Under the pieces are notes generated by a model, which saw only the letters and a program-made list of their open reading frames with translations, was not told the DNA's origin and searched no databases. Positions 2,266 to 19,708 of a stretch of DNA of 35,237 nt are shown one piece after another (positions within the stretch are counted from its first letter, which is position 1; each line of letters starts with the position of its first letter). This DNA comes from Thermaceae bacterium (lineage in GTDB: Bacteria; Deinococcota; Deinococci; Deinococcales; Marinithermaceae), in assembly GCA_026984675.1 (NCBI GenBank), contig JALSRQ010000134.1, positions 1 to 35,237 on the forward strand. The letters are read 5' to 3'. The position numbers and the translations under genes were made by a program.

Positions 2266-3459
2266 ATGACGATCCGCTACCTCTTCCTCGACATGAACGC
2301 CTACTTCGCCTCGGTGGAGCAGCAGGACGACGAGAACCTCCGAGGGAAACCCGTCTGCGTCGTCCCGGTGGAGGCCGAGACCACCGTCTGCATCGCCGCC
2401 AGCTACGAGGCCCGGCGGTGCGGGGTCAAGACCGGCACCCCGGTCTTTGAGGCCCGGGCCCGCTGCCCTGGAATCGTCCTCCGGAAGGCCCGGCCCCGCC
2501 GCTACGTCGAGGTGCACCAGGCGATCGTGCGGGCGGTCGAGAGCGTCCTCCCCGTCGAGGAGGTCCGCTCCATCGACGAGATGCGCTTTAAACTCCTCGC
2601 AAACGAGCGCGGGCGGGCGGAGGAGATCGCCAGGGAGCTCAAGCGGGCCATCCGCGCCCGGGTGGGCGAGCACCTCCTCGCCTCGGTGGGCGGGGGGCCG
2701 AACCGGTTTCTCGCCAAGGTCGCCACCGAGCTCGAAAAGCCCGACGGCCTGGTGCTGATCCGAAAAGAAGACCTCCCCGAGGTCCTCTGGAAACTCAAAC
2801 TCACCGACCTCTACGGCATCGGCCGCCGGATGGAGCGCCGCCTCAACCAGCTCGGCGTCCTCACCGTCCGCCAGCTCACCGAGGCCCCCCTCTCCCTCCT
2901 CCGCCGGGCCTGGGGGAGCGTCCTCGGCGAGCGGATGTACTGGAACTTAAGGGGCGAGGACCTCCCCGAGGTCGAGACCCACCGCCGCACGTTTGCCCAC
3001 TCCCACGTGCTTTCCCCCGAGCTTCGGGCGCCGGAAAAGGCCCGGATGGTGGCGGTGCGGCTTTTGGTCAAGGCCGCCGCCCGCATGCGCAAGGCGGGCT
3101 ACGCCGCCGGCTCGCTTTTCCTGCACCTCCGCTTCCTCGAGGGCGAGGACCACGCCGCCTTCACCCACCTCACCCCCACCTTCGCTACCCGCACCCTGGT
3201 CTTTGCACTGAGGCGCCTTTGGCCCAAGGGCGAGCGGCGAAAAGTGCTCAAGGCCTCGGTCGTCCTCGGCCACTTGGTGGCCCACCCCGGGCTTTCCCTC
3301 TTTCCCGACGAGCGCAAAAACCAGCTTCTGGCCCAGGCCCTTGACTCCGTCAACCGCCGCTTTGGCCCCGACACCGTCCGCCCCGCCACTTTGGACCTCG
3401 TCGGCGAGGTCGGCGAGTACCGGATCGCCTTCGACAAGCTGCCGGATTTTTCGGTCTAA
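2266..3459 (+). CDS. Y-family DNA polymerase (DinB/Pol IV-like)
   Basis: This 397-aa protein is a translesion DNA polymerase. The catalytic carboxylates are visible as D9 in LDMNAYFASVEQ and D104/E105 in RSIDEM. F14 is the likely steric gate that excludes ribonucleotides, and SYEAR (46-50) is the conserved fingers motif. VGGGPNRFLAKVATELEKPDGL (141-162) and LYGIGRRMERRL belong to the palm and the helix-hairpin-helix thumb. The C-terminal third is the little finger. GLSLFPDE at 342-349 resembles the QLSLF beta-clamp binding peptide. The second residue of the first acidic motif is Asn (DMN), where classical DinB has Asp or His. UmuC-like or ImuB-like assignments are less likely given the intact catalytic triad and DinB length. 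Confidence 0.88.
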   Translation: MTIRYLFLDMNAYFASVEQQDDENLRGKPVCVVPVEAETTVCIAASYEARRCGVKTGTPVFEARARCPGIVLRKARPRRYVEVHQAIVRAVESVLPVEEVRSIDEMRFKLLANERGRAEEIARELKRAIRARVGEHLLASVGGGPNRFLAKVATELEKPDGLVLIRKEDLPEVLWKLKLTDLYGIGRRMERRLNQLGVLTVRQLTEAPLSLLRRAWGSVLGERMYWNLRGEDLPEVETHRRTFAHSHVLSPELRAPEKARMVAVRLLVKAAARMRKAGYAAGSLFLHLRFLEGEDHAAFTHLTPTFATRTLVFALRRLWPKGERRKVLKASVVLGHLVAHPGLSLFPDERKNQLLAQALDSVNRRFGPDTVRPATLDLVGEVGEYRIAFDKLPDFSV

Positions 3460-3501
3460 AGCCCCGGATAGGTGGATACAGCCGTCAGCTCAACGGAAAA
3501 A

Positions 3502-6500
3502 CTATCCCTCAGCACCAGAACCATTCGGACGAAACTCAATACCTACCACCACTTCTGGAAGTTCCGCTTCGGGCATTTCGCCAAGTAGTACACCGTAGGT
3601 TTGAGCGAGTCGTGCCAGTGCCTCCCGAATTAGAGCCAGCGTTTTCGTATTTCCATTTGTCTTAGCGGCACCAAGATCTACCGCTTGCAACTCGCGAAGG
3701 GCGTGGCGGGGTAGCCGCCTGGGTCCTTCCAAATCCCGGATAACCCATCTGGCCAAGCGGATCTCCACGTCAGAGAGTTCGTCTTGGTACTGACGCACAA
3801 GCGTTTTTAAGTTTGCAAGAGCCCGACGCTCAATGGAGTTTGAAGGTAACGGCTCAGGTTCTGTACGCTCTAACCACTTGAGGACCTTTAAATAATGGGA
3901 CCAAAATACCTTGCTCAGCTCGAGCCGGGGGGTCTCCGGCGTCGCCTCAGCCAGGGGAAGGGCTTCGGGAAAACTCAGGTAGCGGATCCCGTCCTTTTCC
4001 TCCGGGGCTTTGCCCGGGTCGACCTCGGCGGCGTAGAACCCCCGGGCCTTGCGCAGGAAGATCAAGATTTTGGGATCCCCGGGCCTGGCCACCTTCACCC
4101 GGTTGGGAAGGTGCTCGATGCGCCGCTCGATGCCGGGATGGCCTGCAAGGATCTCTTCCCACAAAAGCCGCAGCCGGACGTCGAAGCTGACCTCCTCGTG
4201 GGCCTCCGGGTCCTCGGTGAGCCTTTCGTAGATACGCGCGGGCCGGGGCTCCTCGTCGGGGTCCAGGATGCGGGCGTCCTCCCCAAGGGCCTGGTGGATG
4301 AGGTAGAGCTTTTGCGCCGCCACCGCCTTGGGATCGGTGACCGCCTGCCCCTGCTCGGTGGGGAAGAAGTGGAAGATGTAGAGCTCGTCAAAGACCTTGG
4401 CGCCGATGCGGTTGATGCGCCCCACGCGCTGGATGACCCGGGTGGGATTCCAGGGAATGTCGTAGTTGATGACCGCGCCCGCCCGGGCCAGGTTGACGCC
4501 CTCGGAGAGCTTGTCCGAGGTCAGGAGCACGTCGTAGTCGTCGCGCCAGGCTTCTTTGGGAAGCGAAGCATCGAAGTTTTCAAGCACCCTTCGCATCAAG
4601 GCGTCGTCCACGCCCTGGCTCACCTTGAGCACGCGGATCCCGGCGGCCTCCATGACCGAAGCCACATGGTCCACGGTGTCGGTAAACTCGGAGAAGACGA
4701 CCAGCTTGCGCCGGGGCTCCCTGGCGAGGCGTTCCCGGATGAAGCCGGCCAGACGGCGGGCCTTGGGGTCGTGCCCGGGTTCGTCGAGCTTCAGTCTGTC
4801 GACCTCAGACGCCACCTTCTCCAAAAGTTTCAGGTCCGCCTCCAGGTCCTTGAGGAAGCGATTCCGGTCTTTGTCGTTCCAGATGCTCAAGTCGTAAAAC
4901 CGGCTCCGTTTACGCTCCCCCCGCGCGATCGCGGCCTCGTCCTCGGCGGCGAGTTCCTCGAAGAACGCCTCGAGGTCCAGGGGATCCTCCCCGTCTCCGA
5001 GCGTTTCCAGGAGCTTGCGATCGAGCACGAAGCGGTTGGTGCGCTCGACGACCTCGATCGCCTGCCGGTGGGCCTCTGTGATCCGCGCCAGGGTGCGGAC
5101 GAACGCCCCGAACGAGCTTTCAAAGCGCCGGACCAGCAAGCGGCGCATGAAGTTGGCCAGGTTGCGCTGGGATTCCACGGCCAGGGCCAGGCCCGAATCC
5201 CCCTCCACCTCGTCCGTTGGCGCCAGGCCTTCCTTGTAGAACTCCGGCTGGTAGATGGCTCCCCGGAAGGCCCCCTCGGGGCCAAACCAGTCTTTGATCA
5301 CCTGGTCGTAGAACGCGGACTGGTCCTTCGTGAGCTCGTAGAAGATGGGCTCAGGGGGGCGCACCTCGGGAAAGGGCGGGGCGCTCCTCTGGTAGCGGGG
5401 GTCGCGTTTGAGGTCCAGGCGGTTACGCCGCACGGTGACCGGCGCGATGAAGCGCTTGACCTCCCGGGCCACCTCGGCCAGGCCCTCCCGGGCCAGGCGC
5501 CGGACGCTTTCCGGGTTGGTCGGCGGTTCCCCGAAGCATTGCTCGAACAGACGGCGGGCCTTGTTCCTGCGTTTTATCTCCGGGGAAGTGTAAAAGCGAA
5601 GGACGTAGCTACAGTCCTGAAACTTCCCGGTCAGGCGCTTGAAGTGCGCAAGAAGGTCGCTCCCCGGGGCCAGCTTCGAGGCCCCCGGGACATCGAAGAG
5701 CGAGAGCAGGGCGTAGATGTCCATGGGGGTGTTATTGAACGGGGTGGCGGTGAGCAGGATGACCTGCTTGTTCGCGGTGATGGCCCGGAGGAGCGCGTAG
5801 TCGCGGGTGTCGGGGTTGCGAAAGCGGTGGGCCTCGTCGACCACCACCACCTCGATACCGTTTCTAGGGTTTCGGGCGTAGGCCAGGGCATCCTCGAGCT
5901 TGCCGATGGAGAAGACCTCCCAGTCGAAGAGCCCGAAGTCGTCCAGGTACTTGCGCCAGCCGTAGGTGACCGACGCGCCCCGCTCCCCGATCAGCCCTGG
6001 CGGGGCGATGACGATGCCGCGCTTGTTGAGCATGCGCCCGACGAGGGAGGCCACCACGCTCTTGCCGAGACCCACCACGTCGGCGAGGATCACGCCCCCG
6101 TAGGCTTCAAGGATGGCCAGGGCGGCCTTGGCGGCGTCGATTTGGTAGGGGAAGGGCTCGTAGCCGGCGTGCTTGATGATGCCTTCCGGGTTAGCGTGGC
6201 CGTCGGTCCGGTCGAGGAGCTCGAGGTAGCGCTTGATCAGCAGGGCGTAGACCTCAAAGGGCGTGGGCTCGGCGGCCAGCGAGCCGTGCTCGATGATCTC
6301 GCGCAAGCGGGCGACGTCCTCGGGGCGGAGGGGCACGGCCCGCCGCCAGAGTTCGTCGAAGTACGCCTCGGCCTCTTCGAAGCCGTAGTCCCCGATCTCC
6401 ACGTTGAATTCGTGCTGGCCCCTGAGCCCGGCGTGGGTCAGGTTGGAGGAACCGGTGATGAACTTGCCCGGGCTGCCAAGAAGCTTTTGTTGGGGAGTAT

Positions 6501-6930
6501 CGACCTTGAACAGGTAGAGCTTGGCGTGGTTGGGCTCGCGGGTCTTCCTGAGCTCAAGCCGGCCGTCCTCAAGGAGCTGAAGGAAGAAGCGGGCCTGCTC
6601 AGGGAACTCGGGAAGGTCAAGGCGAGTATCGGAAAGCGCCCGGGCGAATTCCTCCGCGAAGGCCTTTGAGATGTCGCTCCGGGTGCCTTTGGACTGACGG
6701 GCGACCTCGAGGAGCTCCCCGGCGTGGCGGTCCACGCTCATGCCCACCAGAATCTTGATCTTGAGATCGGGGTTTTCCTGGGCAGCTTTTTTGAGAGGTT
6801 CGTAGAGTTCTCGCCAGCCAGAGAAGTAAAAGAAACCCACCAGGAACTTGAGCTCCCCGGAGGCCTCGATGAGGTCAGCGAGGCGGGCGGCGAGGTCTTT
6901 GGTGGGGTGGTTGGTGATGAAACGACTCAT
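3502..6930 (-). CDS. PLD-nuclease/SNF2-type helicase fusion of a defence cassette
   Basis: The product is 1142 aa. An N-terminal phospholipase-D-type nuclease domain (about 1-200) carries an HxK motif (H135, K137 in NHAKLYLF) followed by GSSNLTHAGL (160-169) and EFNVEI, so it appears intact. It is followed by a superfamily 2 helicase: DVVGLGKS (Walker A, 284-291), DEAH (365-368), TATPFNN (394-400), SEGVNLARAGAVINYD and QRVGRINRIG (motif VI, 834-843). A helical region and a C-terminal domain of unknown role follow. The ATG overlaps the stop of the Mrr gene as ATGA, with GGAGGG upstream. The last 400 bases of coding sequence are visibly AT-richer than the rest. A PLD nuclease fused to an ATP-driven translocase beside a methyltransferase suggests restriction of unmodified DNA. 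That is inference; the domains are clear. Confidence 0.88.
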   Translation of the reverse strand: MSRFITNHPTKDLAARLADLIEASGELKFLVGFFYFSGWRELYEPLKKAAQENPDLKIKILVGMSVDRHAGELLEVARQSKGTRSDISKAFAEEFARALSDTRLDLPEFPEQARFFLQLLEDGRLELRKTREPNHAKLYLFKVDTPQQKLLGSPGKFITGSSNLTHAGLRGQHEFNVEIGDYGFEEAEAYFDELWRRAVPLRPEDVARLREIIEHGSLAAEPTPFEVYALLIKRYLELLDRTDGHANPEGIIKHAGYEPFPYQIDAAKAALAILEAYGGVILADVVGLGKSVVASLVGRMLNKRGIVIAPPGLIGERGASVTYGWRKYLDDFGLFDWEVFSIGKLEDALAYARNPRNGIEVVVVDEAHRFRNPDTRDYALLRAITANKQVILLTATPFNNTPMDIYALLSLFDVPGASKLAPGSDLLAHFKRLTGKFQDCSYVLRFYTSPEIKRRNKARRLFEQCFGEPPTNPESVRRLAREGLAEVAREVKRFIAPVTVRRNRLDLKRDPRYQRSAPPFPEVRPPEPIFYELTKDQSAFYDQVIKDWFGPEGAFRGAIYQPEFYKEGLAPTDEVEGDSGLALAVESQRNLANFMRRLLVRRFESSFGAFVRTLARITEAHRQAIEVVERTNRFVLDRKLLETLGDGEDPLDLEAFFEELAAEDEAAIARGERKRSRFYDLSIWNDKDRNRFLKDLEADLKLLEKVASEVDRLKLDEPGHDPKARRLAGFIRERLAREPRRKLVVFSEFTDTVDHVASVMEAAGIRVLKVSQGVDDALMRRVLENFDASLPKEAWRDDYDVLLTSDKLSEGVNLARAGAVINYDIPWNPTRVIQRVGRINRIGAKVFDELYIFHFFPTEQGQAVTDPKAVAAQKLYLIHQALGEDARILDPDEEPRPARIYERLTEDPEAHEEVSFDVRLRLLWEEILAGHPGIERRIEHLPNRVKVARPGDPKILIFLRKARGFYAAEVDPGKAPEEKDGIRYLSFPEALPLAEATPETPRLELSKVFWSHYLKVLKWLERTEPEPLPSNSIERRALANLKTLVRQYQDELSDVEIRLARWVIRDLEGPRRLPRHALRELQAVDLGAAKTNGNTKTLALIREALARLAQTYGVLLGEMPEAELPEVVVGIEFRPNGSGAEG

Positions 6931-7430
6931 GCGGGGGATCCCTCCAGTTGCAAGAGGGCGAAGGGCGTCCGACGCACCCCGACCTCATGCTCGATGAGCA
7001 AAGCCACGAGCTGCTCGCCGTCGATCAGGGCGACGGGCGCGGCGTCCGGGCGCCTGGCTTCCTCTTTGGCCCCTTCGCTAACGCCGCTGGTGGTGATGAT
7101 GAGTCCCTGTTCATGGGCGCCGAGGCTCCCCCGGACCTGTTGAACGACCGGGGCATGGATATTCCTTTGCCAGCGCTTGACCTGGGCCGCGATGCGCACC
7201 CGGATCGCCCCCGCCACTACCAGCGGGCCGCGTACGTCGATCCCGCCGTCGCGCCGTTTCGGGGTCATCTCGATCTCCTCAAAGCCCATTTCCCCGAGCA
7301 ACCGGGCGATCAGCTCCTCAAAATCCGCCCAGTCCATGGCGTAGAGGACCTTTTTGAGCGCTTTCTCCACCTTCCGGTTGACGATCGCTTCACGCAACGG
7401 CGGCACGGATTCCATCGCCTGCCTTCCCAT
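6927..7430 (-). CDS. Mrr-type restriction endonuclease
   Basis: This 167-aa protein has the Mrr_cat (restriction endonuclease type IV-like) core. DFEELIARLLGEMGFEEIEMTPKRRDGGIDV supplies the catalytic Asp (D65), and AAQVKRW gives the Q83-x-K85 pair. QQVRGSL..EQGLIITTSGVSEGAKEEA is the conserved C-terminal part of the fold. It lacks the extra N-terminal winged-helix domain of full E. coli Mrr. The listed ATG lies 2 nt after the previous stop. ATG at residue 6 has a better-placed GGAAGG and may be the true start. Its stop overlaps the helicase start (ATGA), so all four cassette genes look translationally coupled. Confidence 0.87.
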   Translation of the reverse strand: MGRQAMESVPPLREAIVNRKVEKALKKVLYAMDWADFEELIARLLGEMGFEEIEMTPKRRDGGIDVRGPLVVAGAIRVRIAAQVKRWQRNIHAPVVQQVRGSLGAHEQGLIITTSGVSEGAKEEARRPDAAPVALIDGEQLVALLIEHEVGVRRTPFALLQLEGSPA

Positions 7431-7432
7431 CC

Positions 7433-8716
7433 TCAGCCTCCGTTGCTGTTGCTCCTGGCCTTCGTCAGCCGGTCCTTCACCAACCGGGCCACGGCCCGGT
7501 AGACCTCGAGGCGCTCTTCATCGGTGAGCCCCAGCACGTCGAAGACCACCCGGTCGAGCTCGAAGCGGTCCGGGGAGGCCTTTTGGACCTGCTCGAGGGT
7601 GAGTTTCTCGGGGTGGACGTGTTCGTAGGGGTGTTCAGGGTGGGGGCAGCGGCGTGTTGCGCATAAGGGGTAGCCGACTTCTTCCAAAAGAGCTTTGGTT
7701 GATTGCTCCCGATAGCGAACAAGCGCTTTCTTCAGATCGACAAGGCGCGAATCACTTATATTCGTCAAATCGAGCGTAAAGAACTTTGCCAAGTCAACGC
7801 CCTCGTTTTTTATCGGACCGCTACCACCACCATATTGCCTGCCTAACAATTCCTTGGATAGAACAGCCAAAGTGGAGACACAGACTGCAGTTAGAGGCCC
7901 CTGAAGGTTTTTATCTTTGGCGATGACCTCAAAAAAGTTATGGTCCAGCTCCGCCTGCTCTGAGTTGTCGTGAACATTGTGCCGATCTGCATGAATCATT
8001 GCCCATGCAACAGCGCCAGTATGGGAATTATCTAAATCCCACCACCTCGGCCTGCTCGCCAGCGTGGAGCGCTCCAGTAGGGCGTCACGTTCAATGCTGT
8101 CCGATCCGTGCCTGGGGCAAACCGGATCCGTGCCCCGGTACCCGCACCCGCGTTTTTGACAGACATAGACCGCGCGTTCTCCCCACTCGATGTAAGCGGC
8201 TGCGTTCGGGTAGCGATCGAGCGGCGGAGGTCCTCCCTCCTCGATGGCCTCGCGCACGTCCTGTGGGGGAATGAAGACCAGGTACCGTAGGTCCTCGAGG
8301 CGAACCCGAACGGTCTTGATCTCACGCGGGCTCTTGAGCACCGGCCGCAACCAGGCGGCCTCGATCTCTCCCTCCCATCCAGCGCCGTTTCGCACCCGCA
8401 CCGGAGCCTTCGGGTCTCGCTCGCTCAGCTCAGCGACTTCCTTGACCGTGAGCTCGAGGGGCTCGAGGTAGAAGAACTCGTTGGCTCCAGTGGTAAAGCC
8501 CCGGCGGACTTCCGCCACGTCCCCCAACCGTACCAGCTTGTCCCCGGCCTTCTCCAGGATGCGGAAGTAAATGTCCGGAGCCCGGAGGTAGAGCCCGCCC
8601 CACTTGCCGCCCACGTACTTTCCTTTGTCGTCTTTGCCTTCTTCAAAGAGCTCGGCGGAGGTGCGAACCACCACCCGCACGTTCTCGTTCTGGCGCACGA
8701 TCTTCGGAGCGTTCAT
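7433..8716 (-). CDS. Specificity/C-terminal half of an Eco57I/TaqI-type DNA methyltransferase
   Basis: The product is 427 aa. It starts with VRQNENVRVVVRTSAELFEEG and then VRLGDVAEVRRGFTTGANEFFYLEPLEL. The FTTGANxFFYL stretch is a hallmark of the TaqI-like C-terminal target-recognition domain of type IIG and related N6-adenine methyltransferases. Two possible metal knuckles are present: C186, C191, C200, H203 and C352, C357, H359, H362. The ATG overlaps the stop of the catalytic half in an ATGA arrangement. Homologous proteins usually carry both halves on one chain, so this is either a natural split or the result of a frameshift. The middle (about 7640-8110) has clearly lower GC than its flanks, as expected if the recognition domain was exchanged separately. 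Confidence 0.78.
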   Translation of the reverse strand: MNAPKIVRQNENVRVVVRTSAELFEEGKDDKGKYVGGKWGGLYLRAPDIYFRILEKAGDKLVRLGDVAEVRRGFTTGANEFFYLEPLELTVKEVAELSERDPKAPVRVRNGAGWEGEIEAAWLRPVLKSPREIKTVRVRLEDLRYLVFIPPQDVREAIEEGGPPPLDRYPNAAAYIEWGERAVYVCQKRGCGYRGTDPVCPRHGSDSIERDALLERSTLASRPRWWDLDNSHTGAVAWAMIHADRHNVHDNSEQAELDHNFFEVIAKDKNLQGPLTAVCVSTLAVLSKELLGRQYGGGSGPIKNEGVDLAKFFTLDLTNISDSRLVDLKKALVRYREQSTKALLEEVGYPLCATRRCPHPEHPYEHVHPEKLTLEQVQKASPDRFELDRVVFDVLGLTDEERLEVYRAVARLVKDRLTKARSNSNGG

Positions 8717-11130
8717 GCGAGGGCCTCCTCAGGCTCAAACCCGACCTCGATCGAAGCCATGAGGGCTTCCTCCAGAAGGTCGACGTCCTCAAAGGGCTTC
8801 CTCACCGCGATAAAAAGCACCGGCCAGTCCTTGGGAAGCCTTTGCTTCCGCAATGCATGGGCCACGGTGATCACCGTGTTCACGTCGGCCTCGAACGAGC
8901 GCTTCACCCGGTTTTCGATCACGTAGCGGAGCGGGGCCGCCTCGAGGAAGACCCGCTGCAGCCAGGCTCCGTACTGCACGTCGAGCCAGGAATTGCTGAC
9001 CACGAAGGCGTGCACCCCCTTCTCGTGGAGCAGGGTGAGGGAGCGGGCGTAGAAGTAGGTGTAGAGGTCGGAACGGCCCGCCGGCTTGGGGGGCGGAAAC
9101 ATCGCGTCGTAGGGGCCAAAGCGTTTGAGATCCTCCTGGACCGCCTCCTGCAGCCTGGCCTTGTAGTCCCTAGGCGAAAAGCGGCCGAGGAGGTCGCGTA
9201 GGTTCTCCTGGCGCAGGTAAGGGGGATTGCCGATCACGATGTCGAAGCCGCCCCTCGGGCCGAGCAGCACCTCGGCGAAGTCGAGAAAGTAGACGAAGGG
9301 GCGCTTCTTCTGAGCCAGGAGGGCGCGGATGCGCTTGAGGTCTTTGTCGAGCTGCTTGCTTGGGTCACGAACACCTTCGAGCAGCGCTTGCTTCTGCCCG
9401 CTACCCATCAGTAGAGCCTCGATATAGCGCTCCAAAAAGACCCGCTCCTTTTCCTCGACTGCCTCGAGGCTCACGCCGCGGTTGTGGAAGTAGTCGTCCT
9501 TAGCGCGGACCAAATCGTCGAAGGCTTGTTTGACCTTAGGTTTTTTGAGGGCCTCGTCATCGGGGGGAAGGCGGATGGGGAGCGGGGTCTTGTCGATCGT
9601 CTGGAGCACACTGTCCCCCTGGCGCACCTTCAGGCCCAGGGAGGGCAAAAGGGGCTCCCTCGAGGTCCGCGCCATGTCGTCGAGCTCCACGAAGTAGGCA
9701 AGCCAGAGCCTTAGCTCGGCCATCCAGACCGCCCAGCCGAGGATGTCGACCCCGTAGAGGTTTTGCATCAGGGCGCGCCTCAGGCTCAGGGTTCGCGGCT
9801 CGCCGAGCCGCTCGAGGGCTTCCTCTAAGACGTGGAGCGCGCCGAGCAAAAACGCCCCCGACCCCACCGCGGGGTCCAGGATCTTCGCCTCCTTGAGGAG
9901 CATGCGGGCCCGGTCCCGGAGCTCCGGGCTAAGGGCCTCCGCCTCGCCCTGCATGAGCCGGTAAGCCCCCTCGAGGGGGATCCCCTGTCGCGCCAGGTAC
10001 TCGGCCAGCGCCAGCCGGGCCATGAGGTCGACCTCGACCCGGGGGGTGTAGTGGGCCCCGAGCTCGGTGGCCCTCCCCCCGACCCCCACGGTGTTGACGA
10101 GTTTTTCCAGGATCAGCCCCAAAAACTCGGGGTTGAGCTCGAGGTCGGCGTCGCTGGCGGTGTTCTCCTCGACGGTGAAGTTGTAGGCGAAGACGAAGTT
10201 GAAGAAGGACTCGATGGCCTGGTCGGTGATGTAGGCTCCCTGGTCGTCCACGCCGGGCTTGGGGTTGAAGAGCTCGCCGTTGAGGTAGGGGGCCTCGAAG
10301 TAGGCGCGGCGAACGTCCTCCGGGAGGTGGTCGAAGCTTCCGGGCTTGCTCCCCGGGGGGCCTTTCAGGGCGGAGAAGAAAAGAGGCTCAAGCCAGTCCT
10401 TGTAAAAGCGGTCGCGCCCACCGCTTTCGCGGTAGCGCGCGTAGAGGTTGGGCAAAAAGCGCTCGTCGTTGCCCAGCCACCCCTTCTTAGCCACGAAGCC
10501 CAAAAAGAGGACCCGGGCCACGAAGGCCAGGGCAAAGTCGCGCACCCGCTCCCGGGGAGTGTAGCCGACGATCCCGGGAACGAGCTTTTCCTCGAAGGCC
10601 TCGGCAAACTCCTTGTAGAAGGCCCGGCTGACCGCCTCGAGACTGAAGACCTCCTTGAGGGCCTCCAGGGTCAGGGGCTTGCCGGAGGCCTCGAGGTCCA
10701 AAAGGCGCTCCATCTGCCGGCGGAAGGTCTTGTTGTAGTAGCCAGGCTCCACCAGCAGGCTGGCCTGGCGGTAATCGGAGTAGCGCGGTTTCCGACGCCC
10801 CCGCCAGGCGGTGACGTGGACCAGGGCCATCCGGTAGGCCCCGCTTTCGTCGTGAAACACGACGAGGGCCGCTTCCAGCAGGCGCTCGCTCAAAAAGCGC
10901 GTAACCTGCTCGAAGGCCGCCCGCTGCTTTCTGCGCGCGTCCCTCACGGAAACCGCAAGGAGCGGGACCTCGAGACCGTCCTCGAGGATCAGCGCGCCCA
11001 GCACCTCGCCCTTGTCGAATCCCCCCGCAAAACCCGAGGCGTCGGGGTCGAAGCCTCCGAGCTCCTCGAAGAACTCGATCAGGGCATTTGGGTCATACGC
11101 TTGGGCAACGCGGTCAATCCTGGCAGGCAT
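8713..11130 (-). CDS. N6-adenine DNA methyltransferase, catalytic subunit (Eco57I-like)
   Basis: The product is 805 aa. The catalytic core shows GAHYTP (358-363, motif X region), ILDPAVGSGAF (417-427, motif I, AdoMet binding), NLYGVDILGWAVWMAELRLWL (motif II region) and DIVIGNPPYLRQ with the NPPY catalytic motif IV at 635-638. The N-terminal 350 residues form a separate domain with LLAVSVRDARRKQRAAFEQVTRFLSERLLEAALVVFHD, reminiscent of regions N-terminal to type IIG methylases; no intact nuclease motif is certain there. I chose the ATG at 11130 because AAAGGAG precedes it at good spacing. A longer frame to 11190 would place that site inside the gene. The specificity part is in the next gene (ATGA overlap). 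It probably modifies host DNA to protect it from the Mrr and PLD-helicase components. Confidence 0.87.
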   Translation of the reverse strand: MPARIDRVAQAYDPNALIEFFEELGGFDPDASGFAGGFDKGEVLGALILEDGLEVPLLAVSVRDARRKQRAAFEQVTRFLSERLLEAALVVFHDESGAYRMALVHVTAWRGRRKPRYSDYRQASLLVEPGYYNKTFRRQMERLLDLEASGKPLTLEALKEVFSLEAVSRAFYKEFAEAFEEKLVPGIVGYTPRERVRDFALAFVARVLFLGFVAKKGWLGNDERFLPNLYARYRESGGRDRFYKDWLEPLFFSALKGPPGSKPGSFDHLPEDVRRAYFEAPYLNGELFNPKPGVDDQGAYITDQAIESFFNFVFAYNFTVEENTASDADLELNPEFLGLILEKLVNTVGVGGRATELGAHYTPRVEVDLMARLALAEYLARQGIPLEGAYRLMQGEAEALSPELRDRARMLLKEAKILDPAVGSGAFLLGALHVLEEALERLGEPRTLSLRRALMQNLYGVDILGWAVWMAELRLWLAYFVELDDMARTSREPLLPSLGLKVRQGDSVLQTIDKTPLPIRLPPDDEALKKPKVKQAFDDLVRAKDDYFHNRGVSLEAVEEKERVFLERYIEALLMGSGQKQALLEGVRDPSKQLDKDLKRIRALLAQKKRPFVYFLDFAEVLLGPRGGFDIVIGNPPYLRQENLRDLLGRFSPRDYKARLQEAVQEDLKRFGPYDAMFPPPKPAGRSDLYTYFYARSLTLLHEKGVHAFVVSNSWLDVQYGAWLQRVFLEAAPLRYVIENRVKRSFEADVNTVITVAHALRKQRLPKDWPVLFIAVRKPFEDVDLLEEALMASIEVGFEPEEALA

Positions 11131-11287
11131 TCTGCTCGACTCCTTTCCAAACCCAGAGCACCCTACGGCCCGGCCCTTTTCCCTTGCCAAACCGGCGCTC
11201 CACCAACCCCTCGGCTAGGCCCTGGGCAGTGGCCACCTGCTGTGACATGCGCTCGACACGGGAGGAAACGCTGAGATTCGCTGGCAT
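11114..11287 (-). CDS. Small unknown protein opening the defence operon
   Basis: This 57-aa ORF starts MPANLSVSSRVERMSQQVATAQGLAEGL and ends 17 bp inside the methyltransferase gene. I do not recognise it. The first half could form two helices like a small helix-turn-helix. The second half is basic (ERRFGKGKGPGRR), followed by VLWVWKG. TATATT stands 7 nt before the ATG, the same leaderless arrangement seen at other genes in this window, which is the main argument that it is real. It could be a transcription controller analogous to C proteins of restriction systems, but that is speculation. An alternative ATG lies 24 nt upstream. Confidence 0.5.
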   Translation of the reverse strand: MPANLSVSSRVERMSQQVATAQGLAEGLVERRFGKGKGPGRRVLWVWKGVEQNACQD

Positions 11288-11350: not shown

Positions 11351-12238
11351 CTAACCTGCTCCAGTGTCCCGCTCAAGGCAACGTGCAAGGCCTATAATTC
11401 CTTCACGAAAGCAGGGAAGACTGCCCCTCATGGCCTTTAACGCTTGCAAAAGCCCTTCGAGTGCCTTCCGAATCGGTTTTCCAAGCACTTCTTCAAGAAA
11501 GCCCCCTTTTTCCAGCAACCTGCAAGCTGCTCGGTGGGTCGTGCTGGCATAGGCGTACACGTAGTTACCAAGGAACGGCCTTTCATCCTGAGTGTTCGCC
11601 ATGGCAATGAGCGCGAGCGCAAGCTCTGCCTCGAGGAATAGCTGGTCGGGATCCCGCAATGCACGCCGTGGAAGCACTCCCCGCAAAATTCCCTGTTCCT
11701 TTAAAATGAAGATGTAGCGCGTGCATGGCGAGAGGATCACACCAGTTCTCTTGGTCCGCGAAGTGAAAGAGATCGTGAGACCAAATAGCGAGATCTCGAA
11801 CTTTCGGGACCTGTGGTAACGCCTTTTCATTACGCACGAGCCAAGTGGCGTTTTTAAGAACGCGCAAATAGGCCACGCGCTTATAGGCATGCGCCACAAT
11901 AGCCACCGCGTAATGAAGAAGTACAAGGGGATAGAGGTGAAGTCCTCGGCCTCCTTCGTTCAAAGTGGTATTTATGGGCGGTTCGCCAAAGTCTTCCGCG
12001 AAGGTTTCCAGGAGCTCTTGCAACAGGCTTGCGTAGTTCCCTTTCTCGTCCTGGGCGACAAGCTGAGCCACGGCCTGGATGGCAGGGAGCGTAACTTCCT
12101 CCAGCAGCTCAATCCACCCCTTGGCTTCCTCGGAGGTGGTAGGGCGCGGCGCCCAGGGAATACCGGCGGACTTAACCCTGGATGTTAGCCGATCGAAAGC
12201 CTCATTCAGAGCTTCAGCCACGGGATTCGACGGCCGGC
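11351..12238 (-). pseudogene. Frameshifted, 5'-interrupted gene remnant of unknown function
   Basis: Two minus-strand frames together make one protein-like sequence. From 12238 to about 11725 one frame reads VAEALNEAFDRLTSRVKSAGIPW, then ELLEEVTLPAIQAVAQLVAQDEKGNYASLLQELLETF, then YPLVLLHYAVAIVAHAYKRVAYLRV and DLAIWSHDLFHFADQENWCDPLAMHA. From about 11720 the sense continues in the frame one base on: RYIFILKEQGILRGVLPRRALRDPDQLFLEAELALALIAM, ending near ARCLERDTGAG. A single-base indel at 11715-11730 explains the switch. Upstream the frame runs into an insertion sequence at the CTAG at 12239. Beyond that element there is a stop after about 20 codons, so no N-terminal part is recognisable. I cannot name the family. 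Being helical and in a defence locus, it may be the C-terminal part of another defence protein. Composition is AT-richer than the chromosome average. Confidence 0.6.
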
Positions 12239-12242
12239 CTAG
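12239..12242. repeat. CTAG target copy, left
   Basis: CTAG directly borders the left end of the insertion sequence and is repeated at 13277-13280. IS481-family elements are known to insert into CTAG-containing sites (NCTAGN). Confidence 0.65.
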
Positions 12243-12243
12243 C

Positions 12244-12268
12244 TGTAACCCCCCAACACGTTGTTCAC
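12244..12268 (+). repeat. Left terminal inverted repeat of the IS481 element
   Basis: It begins TGT and ends with CGTTGTTCAC. The inner 10 bp match the right end perfectly at the same distance from the terminus; the 12 bp between are only partly conserved. Confidence 0.75.
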
Positions 12269-13250
12269 GGGAGCCCCATACCCTGGTGCCTGTGAAGGCA
12301 TGGCTTTGGGCACGAGAGGAGGGGCTCCAGTGAACAGCCACAAGAACGCGCGACGCACCTACCAAGGAAGGCGCATCCTTGTGTCCCGCATGATCCACGA
12401 AGGCCTGCCGGTGAGGGAAGCGGCCAGGGCCCAAGGGGTCAGCCCAAGGACCGCTTACAAGGGACTCCGGCGTTACCGCGAGGAGGGTGAAGCGGGCCTT
12501 AGGGATCGCAGTCCAAGACCCAAACGAAGCCCCAGGCGCACGCCGGAGAAGCTTGGGGAGCGGGTGAAAAAGCTTCGCCAAAGGCGCTGGCCCTACCACG
12601 CCATCGCCCATAAGCTTGGGGTTTCCAAAAGCACGGTGGCCCGGATCCTCAAGACCGCGGGCCTTCACCGCCGATCGCTCCTGGAACCTAAGGCGCCACC
12701 CCAGCGCTATGAGGTCGAGGCCCCTGGGGTGCTTTTGCACCTGGACACCAAGAAGCTCGCACGGTTTGAAAGACCGGGACACCGGGTAACCGGGGACCGG
12801 CGCAGGGCTTCTTCCGGAGCAGGCTACGAGGCGGTCTACGCTGCGGTGGACGGCCATAGCCGCCTGGCCTACGTGGAGGTGAAGGCGAACGAGCGGAAGG
12901 AGAGCGCGGTGGCCTTTTTGCTCTCCGCGTTGCTCTACTACCGCAGAACAAGCGTTCGTGTTCAGGCGGTGATGACGGATAATGCCAAAGTCTTCCAGTC
13001 CAAGCGTTTCCAAAGGGCGCTCAGGCAGCTGGGCATCCGGCACAAGACCACGCCGCCCTATACGCCAAGGGTGAACGGGAAGGGGGAGCGGTTCATCCGC
13101 ACGTTGCTGAACGAGTGGGCGTAGGCCCACGCTTATCCTAGCTCCGAGGCCCGGGACGCGTACTTGCCCCAGTGGCTTCATGACTACCACTGGCACCGGC
13201 CGCACACCAGCCTGGGCAACCAGGCCCCCGTCTCACGCTTGGGGCTTAGT

Positions 13251-16980: not shown

Positions 16981-18969
16981 CTAGGCTACGACCTCGACCA
17001 GCCCGAGGTCCCCCTCGCCGGGGTTCATCCGATCGGCGACCTCGAGCACCAACAGCCCGGCCTCGTTCACCGCGTTCCGGCCCACGAAGCCGGCCACCCG
17101 GGCGGCCTCCATGGCGTTCGCCCAGGCCTCCGGGGAGAGACCGGAGAGCCGGATCGCCCGCTCGACGTTCCGGGGCAGCACCCGGACCCGCCGCTCCTTG
17201 ACGTAGAGGGTTCCCACCCGACGGAGGGCCCGGAGCAGCCGCACCACCTGCGGGTTGACGGGGTTGCCGAAGCCCTCGGGGACCCCCGCGAGCGCCCGGT
17301 CCAGGAGCTCGCCGGCCTCGGTCTCGACCAGGTTGCCGTCGGGGAGACGGTCGATTAAGTGGCGGGCCTCGAGCTTCTCCAGCGCCCAGCGGATCCGCTC
17401 GCGGTCGAGCCGGTCCTCCAGCGCCCGGTAGAGCGCCTCCTCGGTCATGCCCCGGGCGGGGATCCGGTGGAAGACCATGAGCTCGTAGCGGGAGAGGTGG
17501 GGCAGCCGGCGAACGTGCTCGGCCAGGCGGGCGTAGAGGTAGCCCGAGGCGGTGGGCTCGCCGGTGCCCAGCAGGCCGGCCCGCCGGCCCTCCTCCACCC
17601 AGTCGAGGCCGGGGGCGCCCTCGGCGGTGCGGGTGAGGGTGATCGCCTTCACCGCCACCGAGGGCACGTCGCGGAGGTTCTGGGCCTGGTCGGCCCGCAC
17701 CGCCTCGCCCCAGGGGGTGAGCCGGTAGACCTCGCGGCCGCGGTCGTCCTCGCCGCTTTCAAGGAGCTGGAAGGACTCCAGGCTAAGGAGCGCCTCGCGA
17801 AGGTCGAAGTTCTCGTCGTACCAGCGGGCGAGGTCCTGGGCCTCGGCGAACCTCCGGGCGATCTCCCGGCGCTTTTGGGGCAGCTCGTCGAGCCGGCGGC
17901 CGTACTTCTCCAAAAGGGCCCGGTACTCCTTCACCTTGCGGTCGATCATCTCGCGGCGGAGCCGCTCGAAGGTCGGCACCTCCTCGGGGTTCTCGGCGGC
18001 GCGCTCCCAGAGCTCGGCGATCGTCGCCAGAACGGCGGCCTCCTCGGCCTCGAGGGCGAACGACCAGACCGCCTCGCGGCCGCCGCCGGTGTAGAGCCGG
18101 AGGGCCTCCAGCGCCCACTCGCCGGCGGGGAGCAGCTCGCCGGAGGGGCCCAGGTAGCCGAGCGCCTGCAGAGTGGCGCGCGCGGCCTCGTTGGCCTCCC
18201 CGCCGTCCAGGTAGTCGGCGAGGGCCCAGAGCAGGTCGCTGGTGAGCACGTCGCCGGGGCCGTAGCCCCCCTGGGCCAGGGCCCGTTTTACCGCCTGCCC
18301 CAGGGCGGTAAAGGCGTAGGCGTCGGAGGCGGGCACCGAGTAGGCCACCAGGCGCATGGCCTCGAGCAGGTGCTCCTGGTGGCGTCCGGTGGGAAGCTCG
18401 CTGGCCGGGGCCGGCCCGAGGGGGACCCGGCGAATCACCTCGGCGAGCTCGGCGGAGATCTCCAGGGCCGGCTCGGCGGCCCGGTAGAGCTCGAGCACCC
18501 GGCGGCCGGCGTCGGAGAGGACGGTGCCCTCGGTCTTCCGCTCCCGGTCGCGGACCCGCACCGCAAGCCCCCGTTCCATGAGCGGCCCCTCGGCGCGGGG
18601 GCCGACCCGGCCGGCGCGTTCGGCGGCCTTGAGCATGGCGATCACCTCGCTGCCGATCCAGCGCCAGCCCTCCTTCCAGGCCTCGGGCCGGTCGAGCCCG
18701 CGGCCGGCCAGCACCGTCCCCTCGCCGTCCTGCTCCTCCTTGAGGTCCGGTCCCTGACGGTAGAGCTCGCGGAGCAGAAGGGCCAGCTCGCGCCCGGCGT
18801 AGGTGGGCACCAGCCGCACCGGGGTGGGGTAGCGGACCAGGCCCATGGCCTCGAGCTCGCGGGCGGTGGCCTCGTCGACCTCCTCCAGCGGGGTGTAGGG
18901 CTTGCCCGCCTCCTCGTCGGCGAGCAGGCGTTCCAGGGCGATGGCGTGAAGTTTGGTGATGACCATCAT
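16981..18969 (-). CDS. Large unknown soluble protein (possibly DUF505-like)
   Basis: The product is 662 aa with no signal peptide or membrane span. It is almost entirely helical, with repeated short winged-helix-like units (EEALYRALEDRLDRERIRWALEKLEARHLIDRLPDGNLVETEAGELL; VSEGAHLTL-style beta wings such as RLTPWGEAVRA). A central basic helix pair (MIDRKVKEYRALLEKYGRRLDELPQKRREIARRFAEAQDLARWYDE) may be a coiled coil. It resembles what I remember of DUF505 proteins, but this needs a profile search. The start has two consecutive ATGs (18969 and 18966) after GGGAGGA; the second is better spaced. It sits between two other unknown genes in one operon. The repeated winged helices suggest a DNA- or protein-binding scaffold, as inference only. 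Confidence 0.75.
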   Translation of the reverse strand: MMVITKLHAIALERLLADEEAGKPYTPLEEVDEATARELEAMGLVRYPTPVRLVPTYAGRELALLLRELYRQGPDLKEEQDGEGTVLAGRGLDRPEAWKEGWRWIGSEVIAMLKAAERAGRVGPRAEGPLMERGLAVRVRDRERKTEGTVLSDAGRRVLELYRAAEPALEISAELAEVIRRVPLGPAPASELPTGRHQEHLLEAMRLVAYSVPASDAYAFTALGQAVKRALAQGGYGPGDVLTSDLLWALADYLDGGEANEAARATLQALGYLGPSGELLPAGEWALEALRLYTGGGREAVWSFALEAEEAAVLATIAELWERAAENPEEVPTFERLRREMIDRKVKEYRALLEKYGRRLDELPQKRREIARRFAEAQDLARWYDENFDLREALLSLESFQLLESGEDDRGREVYRLTPWGEAVRADQAQNLRDVPSVAVKAITLTRTAEGAPGLDWVEEGRRAGLLGTGEPTASGYLYARLAEHVRRLPHLSRYELMVFHRIPARGMTEEALYRALEDRLDRERIRWALEKLEARHLIDRLPDGNLVETEAGELLDRALAGVPEGFGNPVNPQVVRLLRALRRVGTLYVKERRVRVLPRNVERAIRLSGLSPEAWANAMEAARVAGFVGRNAVNEAGLLVLEVADRMNPGEGDLGLVEVVA

Positions 18970-18979
18970 CGTTCCTCCC

Positions 18980-19708
18980 TTAGTCGAGCGCGGCCAGGAG
19001 CTTGTCCACGTGCTCGGCCAGCGCCAGGTCGAAGAGCTTGACGGTGGGCAGCAGCCAGCTGGCCCGGTAGCGGTCGTCGCCGTCCTTGTTCTTGCCAAAG
19101 TAGGCGAGGGCGAACCGGCCCACCCCGGCGTGCTTTTTCAGGGTGTCCTGGGCCTCCCGGAGGGCCCGGCGCATCTTGGGCGGCAGGGCATCGAAGGGCA
19201 CCGCCCGGCCCGGCTGCCCCCGGCCCTGGACGAACTCGGTGGTGAGCCCCGACGAGGCGAACGCCTCCAGCAGCTTTCCGAAGCCCCGCTTTTTGAAGAA
19301 GGCGAGCAGGAGCTCGGCGGCCGGCAGGGTGAAGAGCGGGGTGGCGGAGCCGCGAGCGGGCTGGTAGGCGGCCCGCACCACCCCGCGGCGGTCCTCGAGG
19401 TCCACCCGGACCCGGATCCGGGCCCCTTTGGGCAGCTCGCGGACGACCTCGAGGACCTCCATGGCGGCGCCCCCCTCGGTGTAGCGGTCCCCCGCCTTGC
19501 GGCCCGCCGCCTGATCGGCGACGAAGACCGTCTCGACCCCCTCCCGGAGCCCGAAGATCAGGTCGAAGCCCCAGGCCTTGAGGCTCCGGAGGCCGACCTC
19601 GACCTCGTCGGGAATCGGGCCCCAGACCTCGCGAACGTAGGTGTGCCGGGCCTGCTGGTGCTTTTGGGCAAGTTCCTCGGCGGTGTGGCGGTGGGCACGG
19701 GGTTTCAT
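18980..19708 (-). CDS. Unknown protein, first gene of the operon
   Basis: The product is 242 aa. I chose the ATG at 19708 because it is preceded by GAGGAGGAGGA and reads MKPRAHRHTAEELAQKHQQARHTYVREVWGPIPDE. The longer frame to 19759 would overlap the promoter. The protein has alternating helices and strands (AWGFDLIFGLREGVETVFVADQAAG; ARIRVRVDLEDRRGVVRAAYQPA; ELLLAFFKKRGFGKLLEAFASSG; KLFDLALAEHVDKLLAALD) with no motif I can assign. It is followed after 10 nt by the 662-aa gene. A strong promoter and a strong ribosome binding site indicate high expression. Confidence 0.75.
   Translation of the reverse strand: MKPRAHRHTAEELAQKHQQARHTYVREVWGPIPDEVEVGLRSLKAWGFDLIFGLREGVETVFVADQAAGRKAGDRYTEGGAAMEVLEVVRELPKGARIRVRVDLEDRRGVVRAAYQPARGSATPLFTLPAAELLLAFFKKRGFGKLLEAFASSGLTTEFVQGRGQPGRAVPFDALPPKMRRALREAQDTLKKHAGVGRFALAYFGKNKDGDDRYRASWLLPTVKLFDLALAEHVDKLLAALD

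Follow-up and report, generated by a model that had tools for sequence, protein, structure and literature searches.

What kind of system is formed when a DNA methyltransferase (MTase), two kinds of nuclease and an ATP-dependent helicase are packed into one short run of genes? We examined such a cassette in a 35,237-nucleotide stretch of DNA (hereafter the window; contig JALSRQ010000134.1 of assembly GCA_026984675.1) from a Thermales bacterium whose nearest named relative is Thermaceae bacterium S141_69; the source genome is a draft of 2.08 Mb in 160 contigs and is 92.9% complete. The cassette comprises four genes on the minus strand, in the order MTase, specificity subunit (Spec), Mrr and helicase, located between dinB and an IS481 element. 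A modification-guided defence system, as proposed in an earlier sequence-only reading of the locus, is judged to be its likeliest function, and the cassette is probably a split, ATP-dependent restriction-modification (RM) system resembling a Type ISP enzyme, or half a Type I enzyme, in its action, with an accessory nuclease linked to specificity. Its genes, and the block exchanged within it, are as follows:

8713..11130, minus strand: gamma-class (Eco57I-like) adenine DNA methyltransferase, 805 amino acids (aa) (Pfam Eco57I, E 5.5e-22).
7433..8716, minus strand: specificity subunit, the predicted target recognition domain (TRD) of the gamma-class MTase as a gene of its own, 427 aa (AlphaFold fold match and conservation profile).
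6927..7430, minus strand: slot gene, here an Mrr-type PD-(D/Q)xK nuclease, 167 aa (Mrr_cat, E 2.8e-27).
3502..6930, minus strand: fusion of an HKD nuclease (phospholipase D (PLD)-like) with a RapA-like Swi2/Snf2 translocase, 1142 aa (PLDc_2, SNF2-rel_dom, Helicase_C).
6933..8468, minus strand: exchange block, Spec from codon ~83 onwards together with the Mrr gene (blastn against the closest relative, G017, locus L002).

The four abutting or overlapping open reading frames (ORFs) described in the sequence-only reading (3502-6930, 6927-7430, 7433-8716 and 8713-11190) were all recovered. There is a 4-bp overlap between the MTase and Spec genes, a 2-bp gap between Spec and Mrr, and again a 4-bp overlap between Mrr and the helicase. 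The longest MTase ORF extends to 11190 (825 aa), and we placed the most likely start at the ATG at 11130 because an AAGGAG ribosome site is conserved there in the closest relative and because of the alignment with that relative. The cassette had also been described as having a fifth gene, a 57-aa ORF at 11114-11287. This ORF exists without conservation: in a comparison with the same-place ORF of a relative with a 79%-identical MTase, 47 of 500 shuffles reached the alignment score, and it was rejected as a gene.

At its N-terminus the helicase bears a PLD-like domain, in which there is one HKD-type motif (H135, K137 and GSSN at 160-163). Its AlphaFold model (predicted local distance difference test, pLDDT, 82) had RapA as the best PDB match. 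The positions of H135, K137, GSSN, GLGK, DEAH and QRVGRINR were at least 97% conserved among 84 helicases. The MTase carries the motifs DPAVGSG at 419 and NPPY at 635. Domains and motifs thus bore out the proposed combination of one methylase with one translocase bearing a nuclease in cis, and the residues cited for it (H135 and K137 of the helicase; D65 and the QxK of Mrr, which is QVK at 83-85) were correct.

The Spec protein had no Pfam match and no PDB sequence match. Its AlphaFold model, built from 18 relatives with a mean pLDDT of 84 (plasmid-derived rows were left out of the structure-prediction alignments), matched the adenine methyltransferases CamA and M.BseCI, the Type IIG enzyme BpuSI, and MmeI, with E values from 2e-7 to 9e-4 over about 365-390 alignment columns. 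Judged by this predicted fold, the 427-aa protein is the TRD of a gamma-class MTase. Its conservation profile, too, is of the kind seen in specificity subunits: ~100 residues at the start and ~50 at the end are kept and the centre is hypervariable, with the lowest 50-aa bins at 12-34% identity. Compared with the closest relative, identity falls to 16-18% in the lowest bins of Spec, against 79% for the MTase and 75% for the helicase.

Among 84,980 species genomes scanned, we found at least 576 loci with a gene related to that of the helicase. We sampled the neighbourhoods of 83 loci, namely the best 80 of the at least 576 and three plasmid loci; those outside Thermales were picked by similarity to the window helicase and not at random. 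An MTase/TRD gene was found in the retrieved stretch of 62 of the 83 loci, many of the others being short contigs, and each other family near the helicase was present in at most 7 of them. The MTase gene was upstream of the helicase in 30 loci and downstream in another 30, with frequent 4-bp overlaps. MTase and TRD were usually fused (1,040-1,270 aa), the split form being typical of Thermales. Within this order, orthologues of the MTase and of the helicase occurred in the same 8 genomes, and the core recurred across many phyla without drmA/drmB or DUF499. Given the conserved motifs, the neighbourhood counts and this co-occurrence, the core of the system is a gamma-class adenine MTase with its TRD and a RapA-like HKD-Snf2 helicase, and Mrr is an extra. 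A distant MTase-helicase pair is also found on pSYSX of Synechocystis; we found no paper tying the pSYSX MTase to a motif.

Mrr had been regarded as integral to the system, and this part of the proposal did not hold; that the helicase recruits Mrr in trans, as also put forward there, is conjectural. A profile search of 898 neighbouring ORFs detected an Mrr-family protein near the helicase at only one of the 83 loci elsewhere, where it lay beyond the MTase, and the closest relative, which is 75-79% identical, has no Mrr at this place. The gene gives the single Mrr_cat match of the whole source genome. The protein has GGID at 62-65 and Q83-x-K85, and corresponds to the catalytic domain only: Mrr_cat is preceded by ~28 residues, whereas the nearest homologues (261-285 aa) have ~100 additional N-terminal residues. 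We did not find the N-terminal winged-helix reader of Type IV Mrr, Mrr_cat itself being present, and a PDB sequence search with the protein gave no match. The lack of a reader domain speaks for dependence on a partner and so slightly for docking on the TRD. From these comparisons, Mrr is best seen as the present occupant of an exchangeable slot between the Spec gene and the helicase.

The exchange is most evident in three Thermus genomes (G045, G057 and G069), where the MTases are 96-99% and the helicases 94-97% identical, the TRDs are only 32-39% identical and the slot genes differ. In pairwise comparisons, their DNA was 94-97% identical up to Spec codon 135-139 and again from the helicase start, with no detectable similarity through the remaining Spec and the slot gene, that is, over ~1.4-1.6 kb. 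The same pattern, with an older divergence, was observed between the window and G017 by blastn: 76% identity up to Spec codon 83, none over 6933-8468 and 79% from the helicase start. G017 and T. oshimai, which have the same TRD type (63% identity in the centre) and empty slots, aligned across the junction without a break. Because DNA similarity stops within Spec and resumes at the helicase start, TRD and slot gene were replaced as one unit, and on these alignments the two are exchanged as a single block. We found no report of such a TRD and nuclease block exchange in the open-access literature, which is weak evidence of novelty.

The Thermales sample is small; it covers all available loci, 8 or 9 in number, of which G053 and G057 are near-duplicates. 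The contents of the slot were the following:

Window: Mrr.
G045 (Thermus altitudinis): a 259-aa protein with APDLYCEYAGKRFWVEVK.
G057 and G053: one common protein with TDVD...VE(V/I)K, of 255 aa in G057 and truncated by the end of the contig in G053.
G069: a 270-aa protein with TDVD...VE(V/I)K.
G022 (Allomeiothermus silvanus) and G039: ORFs of 273-282 aa with NDIDA...LELKKP.
G017 and T. oshimai: empty.

Alignment scores gave no clear relationship between Mrr, the 259-aa slot family and the remaining one. The slot proteins of G057, G069, G022 and G039 are distantly homologous, with DxD, ExK and the subsequent W-x-P unchanged in all four. The strict motif D-x(n)-hh-[EQ]-h-K was present in 6 of 6 Thermales slot ORFs and in 22 of 331 background ORFs of 150-330 aa from the same loci, a comparison that is indicative only, as the motif was devised with these sequences already in view and the count becomes 3 of 3 when homologues are counted once. 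The non-Mrr slot ORFs of Thermales thus carry a PD-(D/E)XK-type motif and are putative nucleases. One of them, a 273-aa ORF with DID...ELKKP on A. silvanus plasmid pMESIL02 (11180-11998 of the retrieved locus, L111), lies between the Spec gene and the helicase and is unannotated in the record.

From the gene content, the integrity of the motifs, the predicted TRD fold, the co-conservation of MTase/TRD with helicase and the exchange of TRD with slot gene, we infer how methylation, translocation, cleavage and the slot nuclease would be combined. The complex of MTase and Spec would bind a short sequence through the TRD and methylate an adenine there, protecting the host DNA. At an unmethylated site, the same complex would load or activate the Swi2/Snf2 translocase, which would then travel on the DNA and cut with its HKD nuclease; the single HKD motif per chain would imply dimerisation or the collision of two motors. 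Both mechanisms have established precedents: cleavage upon collision of translocating motors in Type ISP enzymes (PMC3874165), and a cutting PLD nuclease combined with translocation in SauUSI (PMC7913695). The slot gene would be an accessory place for a second nuclease (here the catalytic domain of Mrr), moving with the TRD when recombination changes specificity, and since it travels with the TRD its action is probably matched to the TRD or to the TRD's target. We give slightly less than even credence to a stricter version: every TRD would be accompanied by a PD-(D/E)XK nuclease of its own, structurally unrelated to the others, and recombination between the conserved N-terminal part of Spec and the helicase start would swap both, leaving modification and motor fixed. 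The slot nuclease may move with the TRD as a cognate nuclease reading the same sequence, or it may be an effector docking on the TRD; the slot gene may also be a mere co-passenger, the recombination points being outside both.

Several observations weigh against our main reading. The non-Mrr slot proteins had no convincing Pfam, PADLOC or PDB match, and their reading as candidate nucleases rests on a short motif and its conservation in four sequences. A PDB search with the slot-protein profile gave no match, and plasmid searches recovered no homologue of the slot proteins except the A. silvanus record of the 273-aa ORF itself. Two Thermales systems (G017 and T. oshimai) have no slot gene, so the nuclease is dispensable. 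Finally, the slot outside Thermales often holds non-nuclease families (AbiE, Schlafen-like, AAA_14/DUF4143), so that it could be a generic accessory site.

In a rival reading, the slot takes up accessory or anti-phage genes of any kind, unrelated to one another, and Mrr is a passenger having no functional link to the TRD. The AbiE-type, Schlafen-like, AAA_14/DUF4143 and DUF4268 genes at the same position outside Thermales fit it, as does the absence of Mrr from the relative with 75-79% identity. However, PD-(D/E)XK-like motifs occur in all 6 occupied Thermales slots, whose proteins belong to three or more unrelated families, and the block exchanged extends in every case from the TRD to the helicase start; we consider a generic slot unlikely. 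Among the slot genes outside Thermales are those of the DUF4268/PDC-S11 type: at two loci (L022, 9039-9974; L026, 9019-9990) the slot is occupied by the PADLOC candidate PDC-S11, with DUF4268 at the C-terminus. Both PDC-S11 proteins have an N-terminal D...VVIENQ stretch like that of NucS-type nucleases, with a weak NucS_C match (E 0.07).

Alternatively, two systems could be stacked, the MTase, Spec and slot nuclease forming a Type II-like RM system and the HKD-Snf2 protein a second, ATP-dependent effector that uses the same methylation as a self-mark. The proteins in the slot are all small (255-282 aa, Mrr excepted) and mostly orphans; they are PD-(D/E)XK-like and are exchanged together with the TRD, features to be expected of cognate Type II nucleases. 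Single-TRD gamma MTases such as M.BseCI, one of the top structural matches of Spec, act on palindromes, which also counts for this arrangement. It is nevertheless improbable in our view, as Mrr here is a catalytic domain with no visible DNA-recognition region, the 4-bp overlap ties the slot gene to the start of the helicase gene, and empty slots exist, with no slot nuclease in most phyla.

An origin by loss of drmA/drmB or DUF499 from a DISARM or BREX-related locus, leaving a degraded or minimal version, is very hard to credit and already contradicted: weak scores of the helicase and the MTase against the DrmD and DrmMI models would suit it, but the NCBIfam DrmD score is 134 bits against a cut-off of 610, DUF499 is absent from the genome, the sole DUF1998/MZB protein is a 752-aa ORF on another contig, and the core is kept across phyla without any of these genes.

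The block exchange in the three near-identical Thermus systems is a natural experiment: should each TRD be functionally matched to its slot nuclease, their methylomes would reveal which target pairs with which nuclease, and would give insight into how evolution keeps cognate recognition and cleavage modules together. The thermophilic, split subunits would also be suited to structural study of how an MTase loads a Swi2/Snf2 motor.

Two features flank the cassette in the window:

2266-3459, plus strand: dinB, one flank of the cassette.
12261-13124, plus strand: transposase of the IS481 element, the other flank.

Compared with a cassette-free genome of the same genus (G016), similarity stopped at the 3' end of dinB (position 3461 of the window; position 4848 of L148, G016:C64), which suggests an island boundary there. 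The right flank of the cassette was not found in the genus, and no empty chromosomal site with both flanks was recovered. On the minus strand at 11351-13205 there is a gene remnant similar to the PADLOC candidate PDC-S65 (E 7e-8, residues 325-488 of 592 matched), which directly adjoins the IS481 transposase; because its 5' part is missing, it looks like a defence gene disrupted by the IS481 insertion. Further away, at 16981-19098 on the minus strand, the window encodes a 705-aa DUF505 protein (E 2e-208) of unknown function, with a carbohydrate kinase nearby.

How, then, does the cassette compare with known systems? The earlier view that it is neither DISARM nor a classical Type I system was upheld. 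Its architecture had been taken as new, and here the answer is divided: for the core, the homologues do correspond to something already described, since the pair of MTase/TRD and HKD-Snf2 helicase occurs widely and had been pointed out in 2018 (PMC6098607); for Mrr they do not. In that paper, orf33 and orf34 of the Lactococcus plasmid pLd8, a PLD-SNF2 protein and a type IIG-like N6A MTase, were described as a putative type II system and compared with DISARM class I. The cassette shares with pLd8 the adjacent PLD-SNF2-Helicase_C protein and gamma MTase with a recognition domain, whereas in the pLd8 type MTase and TRD are fused, the helicase gene comes first and there is no slot nuclease. On pLLUC147A, inspected in place of pLd8, we found a similar annotated pair with a homologous helicase (23% identity in the family alignment). 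Apart from that study of 2018, we found no open-access paper naming the core family as a system, and the PADLOC and NCBIfam copies searched held no closely matching core model.

DISARM class 1 also has an SNF2 helicase (DrmD-like), a type-IIG-like adenine MTase and a PLD nuclease; here, drmA and drmB (DUF1998) are missing from the cassette, the only MZB/DUF1998 match of the genome lies elsewhere, and the PLD nuclease is fused to the helicase. BREX-related (BR) type 2 systems combine an HKD-Swi2/Snf2 effector with a DUF499 ATPase and DUF3780 (PMC12839542). They share with the cassette an N6-MTase and the HKD domain N-terminal to a RapA-like Swi2/Snf2 helicase, but their MTase is of the DUF1156 type and ours of the Eco57I type; DUF499 (PF04465) had no match in the 92.9% complete genome, DUF1156 none in the MTase and DUF3780 none among the cassette proteins, the set searched for it. 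We therefore rejected the DISARM and BR type 2 identities, with drmA/drmB, a DrmD-level score and DUF499 all absent. ARMADA (PMC12458937) has a RapA/BrxHII-like helicase beside an adenine MTase and, in the same operon, a YprA-like helicase, of which there was none among the cassette ORFs.

The closest parallels are of another kind. Type ISP enzymes (LlaGI, LlaBIII) consist of an Mrr-like PD-QxK nuclease, an SF2 translocase, a gamma MTase and a TRD (PMC3874165). They translocate and cleave between head-to-head sites. The gamma MTase with a single TRD, the SF2 translocase and the Mrr-like PD-QxK nuclease are all found here too, but Type ISP enzymes are one polypeptide with Mrr as its nuclease, and the cassette encodes four polypeptides, with HKD on the helicase and Mrr optional. 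SauUSI (PMC7913695) likewise has a PLD nuclease fused to a translocating SF2 ATPase, and its dimer cuts both strands; it is, however, a single-protein, modification-dependent (Type IV) enzyme without an MTase. By analogy, the cassette would follow the logic of Type ISP with the chemistry of SauUSI, and its gene set is that of neither. Its core would represent a widespread, little-studied kind of ATP-dependent restriction system, placed between Type ISP, DISARM and BREX-related systems.

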